A DNA stretch of 56,745 bases from an uncultured Burkholderiales bacterium (GTDB lineage: Bacteria; Pseudomonadota; Gammaproteobacteria; Burkholderiales; Thiobacillaceae), in the NCBI GenBank assembly GCA_937949525.1, contig CALEDT010000009.1:1-56745 (forward strand), in the 5' to 3' direction. Positions 12,141 to 16,053 of the stretch are shown here, piece by piece. The translations under genes and the position numbers were made by a program. The notes below the pieces were generated by a model that worked only from the letters and a program-made list of their open reading frames with translations, did no database searches and was not told the DNA's origin. Within the stretch, counting starts at the first letter, position 1. Each line of letters opens with the position of its first letter.

Positions 12141-14186
12141 TCACTCCTCGTCGCCTGCCGGGTTGTGCTGCGCCGCCAGGCGCTGTTGCACGAATGGCGG
12201 TACCGCCTCGTAGTGGCTGAACTCCAGCGTGTAGGAGCCCTGGCCGGCCGTGAGCGACTTGATGCGGGACTGGAAACCGTCCAGCTCGGCCAACGGCACC
12301 TGCGCGACGACGGTGATCATGCCGCCGCGACCGCTGGCGTGGCCGGTGATCTGGCCGCGTCGTCCGGACAGGTCGCCGCTGACGTCACCGACCGCTGCCT
12401 CCGGCGCGGTCAGCTCGACGTTGACGATGGGCTCCAACACGATGGGGCCGGCTTTGGCGGCAGCGTCGAGGAATGCCTTCTTGCCGGCGGTGATGAACGC
12501 GATCTCCTTGCCGTCGACGGGATGGTTCTTGCCGTCGTACACGGTCACACGGACGTCCTGCATCGGGAAACCGGCGATGGCGCCGCTCTCCATGGCCTGA
12601 CGCACGCCCTTTTCCACCGCCGGAATGAACGAGGCGGGAATGACCCCGCCCTTGACCGCGTCGACGAAGTCGAAGCCGGCGCCGCGTTGCAGCGGTTCGA
12701 CGCGCAGATAGACCTCGCCGAACTGGCCGGCGCCGCCGGTCTGCTTTTTGTGGCGGTGGTGGCCCTCGGCGGCGCGCGTGATGGTCTCGCGGTAGGCGAT
12801 GGTGGGCGGGTGGGTGTCCACGTCCAGACGGAACTGCTCGCGCATCTTCTCCAGCACGCTGTTCAGATGGGCCTCGCCCAGGCCGCGGATCACCACTTCG
12901 TGCGTGGTCGCGTCGTGCTCCACGTGCAGCCCCGGATCCTCGTCGATCAACCGGTGCAGCACGTCGCCCAGCTTGTCCATGTCCGACTGCTTCTTCGGCC
13001 GCACCGCCAGACCGAATACCGCGTGCGGAAATTCCAGCGGCTTCATGTAGATGTGGTCGTCCTCCGGCGCGTCGTGCAGCACCGAGTCGAAACGGATGTC
13101 GTCCACTTTGGTCACCGCGCAGATGTCGCCGGGGATGCAGGCATCGACCGGCAGCAGTTGCTTGCCCTGCATGCGGTACAGATGGCCGACCTTGAACGGC
13201 TTGCGTAGCTCGCCGATGTACAGTTGCGAATCCGCGGTGATGGTGCCCTGACGCACGCGGAACGCGGCGGTGCGGCCGACGTAGGGGTCGACTTCCAGTT
13301 TGAACACGTGCGCCAGCGCGTGCTTGTCCGGGTCCGGCTCGACGTTCAGCGGTGTCGCCGCCTCGCCCTCGCCGAGCAGGAACAGCGGCGGATTGGCCTC
13401 GCCGGGATGCGGCAGCAGGCGCACCATGATGTCCAGCAGTTCGTCCAGCCCGGCGCCGCTCGCCGCGGACACGAAGCACACCGGCACGAGATGGTTGTCG
13501 CGCAGCGCCTGTTCGAACGGCTCGTGCAGTTGCTCCGGCGCGATCTCGCCCTGTTCCAGATAGGTTGCCATCAGGTCCTCGTCGATCTCCACGACCTGAT
13601 CCACCAGCGCCTGGTGCGCCGCGGCGACACTGGAGAAATCCGCCTCGCCGGCGGGATTGAAGAAACAGTCGGTGACGCGCGTGGCGCCGGCGGCGGGCAG
13701 GTTGATGGGCAGGCATTCGCGCCCGAACGCCGTCTGGATGTCGGTGAGCAGCGCTGGCAGGTCGGCATCCGGCAGATCGATCTTGTTGACCACCACCATG
13801 CGGCAAAGCTTGCGCGTCTGGGCCCAGTGCATCATGCGGTGCGTGGTGAGTTCGATGCCCTTGCGCGCGTCGATGACGACGATGACCGTATCCGCGGCGT
13901 CCAGCGCGCACATGGCCTGGCCCATGAAATCCGGGTAGCCGGGGGTGTCGAGCAGGTGGATGCGCGTGCCGGCGTGCTCCAGATGGGCCACGGCCAGCTT
14001 GACCGAGTGTTGGTGCGCTTTTTCCAACGGGTCGTAGTCGCACACGGTGTTGCCGCGTTCGACCGAGCCGGCGGCGGCAATGGCGCCAGTGCGGGCCAGC
14101 AGGTTTTCGATCAGGGTGGTCTTGCCGGCGCCGCCGTGGCCGACCAGGGCGACCACGCGCAGTTGCGGGACGGTGAGTGAGTTCAT
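12141..14186 (-). CDS. Elongation factor G paralog (EF-G-like GTPase)
   Basis: A 681-residue translational GTPase with EF-G domain order. The G1 loop reads GHGGAGKTT (residues 17-25) in place of the GHxDxGKTT of housekeeping EF-G. G3 is DTPGYPDF and G4 is NKIDLP. The later domains contain PVDACIPGDI, GLGEAHLN and, at the C-terminus, GYTLEF-like SYTLEF followed by HYEAVPPFVQQRL. No rpsL-rpsG-tuf neighbours are present, unlike canonical fusA. The divergent P-loop and shorter length place it in the EF-G-like subgroup whose role (recycling, stress or other) is unclear. It is followed by the SpeD-SpeE gene on the same strand. Confidence 0.85.
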   Translation of the reverse strand: MNSLTVPQLRVVALVGHGGAGKTTLIENLLARTGAIAAAGSVERGNTVCDYDPLEKAHQHSVKLAVAHLEHAGTRIHLLDTPGYPDFMGQAMCALDAADTVIVVIDARKGIELTTHRMMHWAQTRKLCRMVVVNKIDLPDADLPALLTDIQTAFGRECLPINLPAAGATRVTDCFFNPAGEADFSSVAAAHQALVDQVVEIDEDLMATYLEQGEIAPEQLHEPFEQALRDNHLVPVCFVSAASGAGLDELLDIMVRLLPHPGEANPPLFLLGEGEAATPLNVEPDPDKHALAHVFKLEVDPYVGRTAAFRVRQGTITADSQLYIGELRKPFKVGHLYRMQGKQLLPVDACIPGDICAVTKVDDIRFDSVLHDAPEDDHIYMKPLEFPHAVFGLAVRPKKQSDMDKLGDVLHRLIDEDPGLHVEHDATTHEVVIRGLGEAHLNSVLEKMREQFRLDVDTHPPTIAYRETITRAAEGHHRHKKQTGGAGQFGEVYLRVEPLQRGAGFDFVDAVKGGVIPASFIPAVEKGVRQAMESGAIAGFPMQDVRVTVYDGKNHPVDGKEIAFITAGKKAFLDAAAKAGPIVLEPIVNVELTAPEAAVGDVSGDLSGRRGQITGHASGRGGMITVVAQVPLAELDGFQSRIKSLTAGQGSYTLEFSHYEAVPPFVQQRLAAQHNPAGDEE

Positions 14187-14238: not shown

Positions 14239-15000
14239 TCAGCGCATGCCGCCGAGCAGTTCTCCCCGATTGGTGATCAGATCCCAGACCGAGGGCGCGA
14301 CCGCGCGTATGCTGGGAAGTGCTTCGTCGACCGTGCCCAGGCAGGGCACGCGCAGACCGTGATAATCGACATCCGGGCCGATGCGGTTGAAGATCACCCC
14401 GAAACGCGCCAGCAGCCGCAACAGCGCGGGCTCCATCACCGCGTAACAGTGGGTGACGCCGTGCTGCTGCACCATGCGCATGACCACGGCGAACAAGCCC
14501 AGGGAAATGTGCGGCAACACGCGGCGTTCATCTTCCTCGAAATAGATTTCGATGTTGGGTGCCACACCGGCCAGCGAGCCAGCTTCGCCGAGACGCCGCT
14601 TGAAGGTCTTGGATACCGCGAAACGCGAGATCTCGCCCAGTCGTGTGCGCACGTCCCGGTCGATGACCGGCTGATCGAGCGGACAATGGCGCTCGATCGG
14701 AAACGGCGCGGCGAGGTCGTCGCGATCCGGCAGGATCAGGCGCGCCGTGGCGGCATACAGGCCGGTGCGGCGGTGGCGCACCAGGTAGTGATCGGAGCGG
14801 ACGTCGAACTCGTCCTCCTCCCAATGGAACGGTCGACCGTCGGCGTCGATGCCGGATCTGCATTCCTCCACGCGTTCGAAACCGGTCTCCACCACGTAGA
14901 CCTGATAGCGCAGCAGATAGACCTGCATACGCAGCGCGTCGGTGTCGGCATGCACCAGTTCGAAATACTCGTTGAGCGCGGCGATCAGATCGGTGTTCAT
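14239..15000 (-). CDS. PEP-CTERM/exosortase system-associated acyltransferase
   Basis: A 253-residue member of the GNAT-like family found in PEP-CTERM/exosortase bacteria and related in fold to acyl-homoserine-lactone synthases. Recognised regions are LRYQVYVVETGFE (residues 30-42), the ARLILPD segment, RFAVSKTFKRR near residue 130 and GLFAVVMRMVQQHGVTHCYAVMEPALLRLL in the C-terminal half. Homologs are described as N-acyl amino acid synthase-like. No exosortase (EpsH) or PEP-CTERM protein gene is visible in the window, so its partners must lie elsewhere. It is divergent from a candidate small RNA. Confidence 0.85.
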   Translation of the reverse strand: MNTDLIAALNEYFELVHADTDALRMQVYLLRYQVYVVETGFERVEECRSGIDADGRPFHWEEDEFDVRSDHYLVRHRRTGLYAATARLILPDRDDLAAPFPIERHCPLDQPVIDRDVRTRLGEISRFAVSKTFKRRLGEAGSLAGVAPNIEIYFEEDERRVLPHISLGLFAVVMRMVQQHGVTHCYAVMEPALLRLLARFGVIFNRIGPDVDYHGLRVPCLGTVDEALPSIRAVAPSVWDLITNRGELLGGMR

Positions 15001-15139
15001 GGCGTCGCTTCGGTTGATGAACGCAGGTTAGCCAAGCCCGTGTTGTACGTAAACCACAGATCGGCATGGTGCAGAAAAATACCTGCGGCCACCATCGAAA
15101 TCCCCCTTGTTCGGCAAGTAATCATATTAGAAAATGCTG

Positions 15140-15242
15140 ATAACACTGATGCGGCACTTCCTCCCTGTGTCGTGTTGGTGTTGTCTCCTCCATCCTCCTC
15201 CTTTGGTGGATTTAGCCCGGTCACCCGACCGGGCTTTTTTTT
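15140..15242 (+). ncRNA. Candidate trans-acting small RNA with anti-Shine-Dalgarno loop
   Basis: A gene-free intergenic stretch ends in a perfect intrinsic terminator (15215-15242). Just before it, a short stem CCATC/GGTGG (15190-15194 with 15205-15209) presents a 10-base loop CTCCTCCTTT, which matches the anti-SD 3' end of 16S rRNA. A second C-rich patch, TTCCTCCC, lies at 15158-15165. C-rich loops of this kind occur in CcsR-type and other small RNAs that pair with ribosome-binding sites. The 5' end is a guess. An AT-rich patch at 15116-15136 may hold the promoter, but no clear -35/-10 pair is seen. A 61-codon open frame across it is not credible as a protein. Confidence 0.55.
15215..15242 (+). 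terminator. Intrinsic terminator of the candidate small RNA
   Basis: A perfect 8-bp stem GCCCGGTC/GACCGGGC with an ACCC loop is followed directly by eight T residues (15235-15242). It reads on the plus strand, yet no plus-strand protein gene ends upstream of it: the nearest leftward gene is on the minus strand. It therefore most likely ends a non-coding transcript. Confidence 0.85.
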
Positions 15243-15345
15243 GCCCGGGTAGCATAGCGGATCATCGTCGCCGGTGTGCGAACACCGCGCGCGCCGACGT
15301 TCGGGAACAGCTATCATGAAAGCCCCATCCGGCAGGATTGCCACC

Positions 15346-16053
15346 ATGAGCGATGAACTTGCCTCCCTGAGCGACGCGGAACTCGACGAGCTGGAAGCGT
15401 TCCTGCTATCCGACGATGTGCCGGAGGATTGCATGGACATCGCCATGCTCGACGGTTTCCTGACGGCCCTGATCATCGGTCCCAACACGCTGCTGCCCAG
15501 CCAGTGGCTGCCGTACATCTGGGGTGGTGACGAGAACGAGGAGATGACGTTCGCCTCCGGCGAGCAGGCCGAACGCGTGCTCAACCTGATCATGCGTTAC
15601 TACAACGATCGCGTGCACGACCTGCGCGAGGATGCGGTCGAGTTCGAGCCGCTGTTGTATGTGCGTCAGGACGAGGCGGGCGAGGTGCCGGTGCTGGACG
15701 AATGGTGCGTCGGTTTCATCACCGGCATCGGCCTCGATCCCGAGGGCTGGCGACCGCTGATCGAGTCCGATGCGGAACAGGATGCGGTATTGCTGGCGCC
15801 CATGTTGCTGTTCGGCACCGAGGACGGGCAGGCCGAGTTGCGCAGCAATCCGGAGTTGGCCGGACGCCAGTCGGACTTTGCCGACGGACTGGGCCCATGC
15901 GTCCTCGGCATTCGTGATTTCTGGTTGCCCGGCCGCAAGCGCGCCGCCACCGTCCGGCGCACATCCGCGAAAGTGGGACGCAACGACCCGTGCCCGTGCG
16001 GCAGTGGCCTCAAATACAAGAAGTGCTGCGGCATGGACGACCCGCTGACGTGA
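15346..16053 (+). CDS. UPF0149 (YecA/YgfB-like) protein with C-terminal SEC-C zinc motif
   Basis: A 235-residue cytosolic protein. The N-terminal part resembles the UPF0149 fold of Yec[16 protein letters not shown], then [28 protein letters not shown]. The C-terminus carries a SEC-C zinc motif, [16 protein letters not shown], as found at the end of SecA. YecA is a ribosome-associated SecA-related protein in E. coli. The start at 15346 was chosen to match the family N-terminus; an in-frame ATG 30 bases upstream is also possible. The following DUF255 gene starts within 20 bases. Confidence 0.88.

Follow-up and report, generated by a model that had tools for sequence, protein, structure and literature searches.

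A three-hairpin RF02278 small RNA with two anti-Shine–Dalgarno sites and a palindromic promoter site in a Thiobacillaceae bacterium

The window analyzed here is a stretch of 56,745 nucleotides (contig CALEDT010000009.1, assembly GCA_937949525.1) from an uncultured Burkholderiales bacterium of the Thiobacillaceae, and the element in question is a small RNA (sRNA) gene at positions 15140-15242 of its forward strand. Judged by its sequence, the locus is a member of a known Rfam family of sRNAs that mask Shine–Dalgarno (SD) sequences, RF02278 (Betaproteobacteria toxic small RNA). To this known family the locus adds an extra conserved 5′ hairpin and, new here, a palindromic promoter site. Taken as a whole, the locus is very probably best explained as a stand-alone, trans-acting RF02278 sRNA that masks SD regions, with a sulfur-linked repressor probably acting on its promoter. 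The features of the locus, with stem-loops abbreviated as SL, are the following.

15107-15135, forward strand: promoter, with the -35 box TTGTTC at 15107-15112, a 17-bp spacer and the -10 box GAAAAT at 15130-15135
15125-15142, strandless: operator-like palindrome TATTAG-AAAATG-CTGATA over the -10 box, one of eight sites in the genome with at most one mismatch to TATTAGN6CTAATA
15140-15242, forward strand: predicted primary sRNA of about 100 nt, from its fold, promoter position and terminator; the -10 box suggests a start near 15142
15140-15184, forward strand: SL1, an 18-bp 5′ hairpin outside the Rfam model, with arms 15140-15157 and 15167-15184 and loop UUCCUCCCU at 15158-15166
15182-15242, forward strand: RF02278 core
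15184-15191, forward strand: first anti-SD site (anti-SD1) UCUCCUCC, mostly single-stranded between SL1 and SL2 in the predicted ensemble
15189-15210, forward strand: SL2 in the register of the Rfam structure, with the second anti-SD site (anti-SD2) in its loop CUCCUCCUUU at 15195-15204
15214-15242, forward strand: SL3, the intrinsic terminator, with a 9-bp stem, a 4-nt loop and T8

A scan of the window against Rfam 15 returned two matches in total, one tRNA and RF02278. The latter scores 69.9 bits against a gathering cut-off of 50 (E = 4.2e-12, whole-window scan), and its alignment spans the full model, positions 1-64 of 64. When 15000-15400 was scanned permissively, RF02278 alone among 15 matches exceeded its cut-off; the highest-scoring of the others, NmsRb (35.5 of 52 bits), SorY (32.5 of 111) and anti-hemB (32.2 of 49.5), fell below theirs. 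The folding energy of 15140-15242 is -47.8 kcal/mol (z = -8.2), with none of 200 shuffles as low, and chance is excluded by this fold together with the E-value of the family match. The elements follow one another in the order SL1, anti-SD1, SL2 with the anti-SD2 loop, and terminator.

Both anti-SD sites are largely accessible in the predicted ensemble. Positions 15185-15191 are 72-100% unpaired, while 15184, which closes SL1, is 24% unpaired in the full-length RNA; for the SL2 loop positions 15199-15203 the unpaired fraction is 99% or more, both in the full-length RNA and in the 61-nt form. A preliminary description of the locus had drawn SL2 as the stem CCATC (15190-15194)/GGTGG (15205-15209) around the loop CTCCTCCTTT (15195-15204), and all of this was found as described; that register is backed by the Rfam alignment, and the minimum-free-energy structure shows the same hairpin in a shifted register. 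The CCTCCC patch that it had noticed upstream is present at 15160-15165, in the apical loop of the 18-bp hairpin, and the perfect stem GCCCGGTC/GACCGGGC with T8 (15235-15242) is in its place. The terminator had also rightly been singled out, being the only one of 29 terminator-like sites listed for the window (9 + 12 + 8, against chance expectations of 8.8, 10.2 and 9.3) with seven G-C pairs and the only one with seven T after it. No match to the pattern GGCTGGATCACCTCCTTT for the 3′ end of the host 16S rRNA was found in the 64-contig assembly, perhaps because the rRNA operon is absent from it.

The loop nucleotides of SL1 (15158-15166) are at least 99% unpaired in the ensemble. Conservation of the hairpin was assessed on the segments between promoter element and core, which were thus gathered via these two landmarks and not via the hairpin. 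Of 143 oriented loci, 115 supplied such segments, 93 of them distinct; the 48 segments ending in TGT or CGT count, by that rule, as the betaproteobacterial type, and 45 are others. For the 48, the ten outermost pairs were anchored from both ends without structural alignment; the shuffles ignore relatedness. Among the 48 sequences, 90.0% of cells hold a standard pair, as against 85.2 ± 0.7% after shuffling (0 of 500 reach it) and at most 57.7% when the register is slid by +1 to +3. The covariation score is 0.269, compared with 0.176 shuffled (0 of 500) and at most 0.164 slid. The 45 other segments, taken in one fixed register, are 58.0% paired (shuffled 52.6%, 0 of 500; slid at most 39.1%), with a covariation of 0.246 (shuffled 0.175, 0 of 500; slid at most 0.152). 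A folding z below -2 is found for 47 of the 48 betaproteobacterial-type segments and 38 of the 45 others. The apical loop or its immediate surroundings contain CCC in 32 of 48 (8.0 expected) and 24 of 45 (8.8 expected, in both cases from shuffling the middle), and at the same place the more SD-like CTCC occurs in 17 of 48 and 2 of 45; because of these counts across segments, the CCUCCC of the window is read as one variant among loops that are generally rich in C. The pair between 15142 and 15182, where the Rfam core begins, varies (A-T 32, G-C 8, G-T 5 of 48), an argument for SL1 and core being one RNA. By these comparisons SL1 is real and kept as a structure in relatives, and its inclusion would improve the Rfam model.

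One RF02278 copy above the cut-off is present in the window's genome, where the next best match, on another contig, scores 24.6 bits. Among 61 genomes including this one, 50 match at E ≤ 1e-3 and 40 exceed the cut-off. Within the family (G000-G036), 34 of 37 genomes match at 49.4 bits or more, the exceptions being G004 with no match and G016 and G020 with weak matches only. In another family of the order, a single genome (G043, contig C1) carries nine RF02278 matches, eight of them above the cut-off and two less than 400 bases apart. Across an evenly drawn sample of the class, which contained the window's genome, 78 of 369 genomes matched at E ≤ 1e-4, just three of them above the cut-off; in the 17 of 27 fetched below-cut-off loci (L037-L063) that were run against Rfam, tRNAs alone reach a gathering score. 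Promoter element and core pattern together were found in at least 118 stretches of named genomes, a result that says nothing on the conservation of TATTAGA, as the pattern required it. Among the 80 matches listed, the records are beta- and gammaproteobacterial where their titles tell; they include Thiobacillus, Sulfuriferula, Sulfuricella, Gallionellaceae, Hydrogenophilus and Parasulfuritortus and, from the Gammaproteobacteria, Thioalkalivibrio, Thiohalobacter, Sedimenticola and Ca. Thiodiazotropha, and many others are metagenome-assembled genomes. The genera named here are known as oxidisers of sulfur or iron. In four relatives that keep the neighbouring acyltransferase gene, identity to the window over 15182-15241 is 1.00, 0.90, 0.80, 0.97, 0.70 and 1.00 per 10-base block and 0.33-0.47 in the next four blocks, so that the loss of loop and terminator beside conserved flanking genes, which the preliminary description had named as refuting, is not seen in these four. 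The three-hairpin form in the Thiobacillus-like family, together with sub-threshold homologues in other Gammaproteobacteria, suggests from sequence comparison that the RNA family is older and wider than its Rfam name.

The predicted transcription start, near 15142, lies at the base of SL1. Among 26 family loci examined, TTG stands 18 to 16 bases 5′ of an invariant TATTAGA, which gives TTGNNN-17-GANNAT; TTG at this spacing and GANNAT are found in all 26. Over the -10 box, the palindrome takes the family form TATTAG-N6-CTNATR, with TATTAG as the left half in 33 of 34 loci, the exception having TATAAG, and CTNAT on the right in all 34. The window's copy has one mismatch to the operator pattern ATTAG-N6-CTAAT, and the CT of its right half lies outside both the -10 box and SL1. 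Three further loci represent other families within the order: in L246 the palindrome is exact and a hairpin is present, and L247 and L248 are without TATTAG. TATTAGANNNT is absent from six loci of other families in the order.

The palindrome is not confined to the sRNA gene. Allowing at most one mismatch, TATTAGN6CTAATA has eight sites in the window's genome and none in the reversed control, one of the eight being the sRNA promoter; the exact ATTAGN6CTAAT has five sites, against none reversed. Summed over the genus (G000-G022), the exact pattern occurs 98 times, compared with 5 in the control, and 14 genomes of other families hold 17 sites against 10. The other seven sites in the window's genome stand 19 to 95 bases 5′ of plausible starts. 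One of them stands before dsrA (TIGR02064, 504.6 bits) and two before genes for proteins with a rhodanese domain. The remaining four precede genes for a Sulf_transp and a DUF302 protein, a truncated AhpC/TSA frame, and a gene whose 260-aa product matches no family. As a side observation, these loci (L070, L069, L072, L077, L078, L065, L076) form a small sulfur and redox gene set with TATTAG-N6-CTAATA sites in common; at L078 (1542-1733), the peroxiredoxin-like frame behind an exact palindrome ends after 63 residues and is thus less than a third as long as the matching models. A control site seems, on the strength of the shared motif, to be common to the sRNA gene and sulfur-metabolism genes of this genome, and a sulfur-responsive repressor probably acts over the sRNA promoter.

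Two places in the window's genome exceed the Pfam cut-off for HTH_5, an ArsR-type domain. For L245, an ArsR-family protein of 105 aa, the best relative of known structure is BigR of Xylella (3pqj, E = 3.5e-18); both cysteines align. The likeness to BigR/SqrR/SoxR-type regulons thus consists of a two-cysteine BigR-like ArsR protein as a candidate regulator; the difference is that L245 falls short of the BigR equivalog cut-off (79.4 against 155). No ATTAG-N6-CTAAT was seen by eye in the stretch upstream of the BigR-like gene, and this locus is not among the genome sites. In the available excerpts of PMC10451225, PMC9774250, PMC5823870, PMC7315123 and PMC12423496, no ATTAG-type BigR operator was found, the sole ttag match in PMC5823870 being a cloning primer. 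Repeats of TATAAGC/GCTTATA lie near the BigR-like gene (L075, 1201-1800) and possibly represent a different operator.

The preliminary description had proposed a trans-acting anti-SD riboregulator, and this reading gains support, by analogy, from what RF02278 relatives were shown to be. Its comparison with CcsR was an analogy only, and it overlooked the known Rfam family. Alphaproteobacterial CcsR/cuckoo RNAs have C/U-rich anti-SD loops and a terminator and occur in tandem copies; the present RNA is single-copy, and its likeness to them is one of general description. The toxic RNAs of RF02278 reportedly owe their name to Kimelman et al. in 2012.

Burkholderia cenocepacia ncS03, ncS05, ncS27 and ncS62 share this core, including its terminator and both C/U-rich anti-SD sites, and are intergenic with their own promoters. 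Three of them measure 57-67 nt, nearly all of it two hairpins, and ncS27 is 92 nt long and processed; the CU-rich regions of these double-hairpin RNAs are predicted to cover ribosome-binding sites, and Burkholderia genomes hold three to five copies, as opposed to the one above cut-off here (PMC5688073). Overexpression of ncS27 slows growth and silencing does the opposite (PMC5688073), and a review presents it as a regulator of metabolic shutdown upon nutrient loss (PMC10987360). The RNA of the window differs in its third conserved 5′ hairpin and its palindromic promoter site. Longer 5′ parts are known from Herbaspirillum, where RNAs of 93-115 nt have the Rfam core from position 25-48 on (PMC7011215), and the family promoter motif may be partly known, since three Burkholderia double-hairpin RNAs are said to have an upstream motif in common (PMC5688073, supplementary figure). 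In the open-access titles and abstracts covered, with subscription journals mostly outside the scope, none dealt with an RF02278 RNA from sulfur oxidisers or with the palindrome at its promoter.

Bordetella pertussis S17 (S17L of 190 nt, S17S of 67 nt) is, according to its authors, homologous to the Burkholderia toxic sRNAs (PMC11722255). It represses one target directly, depends on Hfq and is cut by RNase E to the 67-nt form, whose positions 2-28 are fully conserved in various Betaproteobacteria (PMC11722255). Sites 1 and 2 of this short form are complementary to ribosome-binding sites, a likeness to the present RNA by description and not by sequence; S17L differs in a longer 5′ part with a small open reading frame and in a level that follows the Bvg mode (PMC11722255). 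Neisseria NmsRA/NmsRB (RF02877; NgncR_162/163) are likewise built of three stem-loops, their anti-SD1 lying between the first two and their anti-SD2 in the loop of SL2 (PMC5362039). However, the window RNA scores 35.5 bits for RF02877, below the gathering 52, and is single-copy in its genome, whereas the NmsRs are tandem siblings. The NmsRs repress genes of the tricarboxylic acid cycle; when either anti-SD is mutated, repression is lost for every target tested except GltA, for which only anti-SD2 is required (PMC5362039).

On the preferred reading, the RNA would be transcribed from its own sigma-70-type promoter at about 15142, end at 15242 and fold into SL1, anti-SD1, SL2 with anti-SD2, and terminator. 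Its two C/U-rich sites would pair with the SD regions of several mRNAs, whose translation would be repressed. SL1 probably caps the 5′ end, may provide a third C-rich contact and may be cut away at its base (15181/15182); the core 15182-15242 probably corresponds to the short forms that processing yields in relatives. The promoter is probably covered by a repressor with sulfur-metabolism genes also under its control, and the RNA would then be made when reduced sulfur is available. Membership, structure, conservation and the shared palindrome come from the present analysis, while ribosome-binding-site pairing and the parts of Hfq and RNase E are carried over from relatives in print. SD masking in trans is the reading adopted on the basis of that literature; the role of SL1 as cap or third contact and the sulfur-linked switch are inferences, and the processing in this genome, the repressor, its signal and the targets are likewise conjectural.

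The neighbouring genes are listed below.

12141-14186, reverse strand: elongation factor G (EF-G) gene (NF009891, 980.2 bits), upstream of the sRNA
14239-15000, reverse strand: PEP-CTERM/exosortase acyltransferase gene (TIGR03694, 222 bits against 111.95), divergent from the sRNA, as the preliminary description had it
15346-16053, forward strand: UPF0149/SEC-C gene, about 100 bp downstream of the sRNA

The idea that the sRNA is part of an acyltransferase unit was rejected, the sRNA being kept where the acyltransferase gene was not found; in L007, L009, L013, L015 and L031 it stands with EF-G and no acyltransferase upstream (tblastn). An EF-G homologue lies upstream of the sRNA in 8 of 25 other fetched family loci, with the acyltransferase between or not. 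The near-palindromic TGTTGTACGTAAACCACA at 15041-15058 falls in a block (15022-15061) of 0.68-0.80 identity with the four acyltransferase-keeping relatives, and is perhaps, by analogy, an acyltransferase operator; operators of this kind occur at acyl-homoserine-lactone synthase genes. In the sub-threshold loci run against Rfam, a tRNA gene is present in 12 of 17. In all eight of these that were run through ARAGORN (L038, L043, L044, L056, L060, L061, L062 and L063) it is a tRNA-Gln(CTG) about 1.0-1.4 kb downstream of the sRNA on the same strand, a synteny different from that of the window.

Several other explanations were weighed. A 5′ untranslated leader or attenuator of the UPF0149/SEC-C gene would suit the position of the sRNA about 100 bp 5′ of that gene on the same strand, but a strong terminator separates the two, and a UPF0149 protein was found beside the RNA only at the window's own locus (tblastn; some other flanks were short); on these grounds it was rejected as very improbable. 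Chance hairpins or a functionless repeat, for which no supporting point was found, can be practically dismissed in view of the Rfam E-value of 4.2e-12, the conservation across genera and the maintained pairing. It is also rather unlikely that the RNA is mainly a general brake, binding start sites or ribosomes broadly instead of regulating defined targets. The anti-SD sites are indeed short and general, the growth effect of ncS27 overexpression (PMC5688073) would fit, and the family was named after its toxicity when cloned in E. coli (PMC4603805). Nevertheless, S17 is reported to have just a modest effect on stationary-phase entry, and of the 92 genes that rise without S17, 70 have near-ribosome-binding-site sequences complementary to its single strands (PMC11722255).

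A last alternative concerns the palindrome, for TATTAG might be a conserved extended -10 or promoter feature of the RNA gene whose likeness to the sulfur-gene palindrome is coincidental, a reading to which we give a real chance, if somewhat below even. It draws on the sub-threshold loci of the class: in 11 of 27, TATTAGANNNT stands at a constant distance from a TTGACA-like -35 box, and the right half-site is degenerate (gammaproteobacterial homologues). Against it, the right-half CT is invariant in 26 family loci despite its place beyond the -10 box and SL1, the remaining sites of the genome lie mostly before sulfur and redox genes, and sites outnumber the control in the genome (8 against 0) and genus (98 against 5), with 17 against 10 in other families. 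The degenerate half-sites also weigh against the preferred reading of an SD-masking sRNA under a sulfur-linked repressor, and so do the following. The promoter hexamers are weak by consensus, and a consensus scan did not report the promoter. Just 15 of 34 family loci have CTAAT as the right half, including the one with TATAAG on the left; it is CTTAT in 15, CTGAT in 2 (including the window) and CTCAT in 2. At two mismatches the genome signal fades to 14 sites against 10 in the control. Pairs of SL1 changed on both sides number 5 among the 48 sequences, not above the shuffled 4.5 (297 of 500 reach it; slid registers 4, 5 and 7), and the 15 further pair types, a weak count, compare with 11.8 shuffled (8 of 500) and 15, 17 and 16 slid; in the 45 others, both-side pairs are 8 against 7.7 (303 of 500) and pair types 25 against 22.6 (83 of 500). 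Finally, the 17-nt core complement AAAGGAGGAGGATGGAG with up to three mismatches occurs in the genome at its own locus and one other site (three mismatches), compared with 4 in the control, and therefore no target can be named.

A broader proposal can tentatively be put forward, with somewhat less than even confidence. The SD-masking sRNA would be an ancient member of the sulfur-oxidation regulon in Thiobacillus-like betaproteobacteria and, more loosely, in gammaproteobacterial sulfur oxidisers. A repressor responsive to sulfane sulfur, perhaps the BigR-like two-cysteine ArsR protein, would free it together with dsr and rhodanese genes, and up to three C-rich sites would then stop the translation of competing uptake or catabolic genes. 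If true, the RNA would be a post-transcriptional arm of a lithotrophic switch. In Burkholderia and Bordetella the RF02278 family, and in Neisseria its look-alike, have mostly been studied for their braking effect on uptake and carbon metabolism. Should the shared operator prove real, a first concrete signal, reduced sulfur, would be in hand for such an RNA in lithotrophs, and with it an easy way to test whether translation is coupled to the energy source by anti-SD sRNAs.
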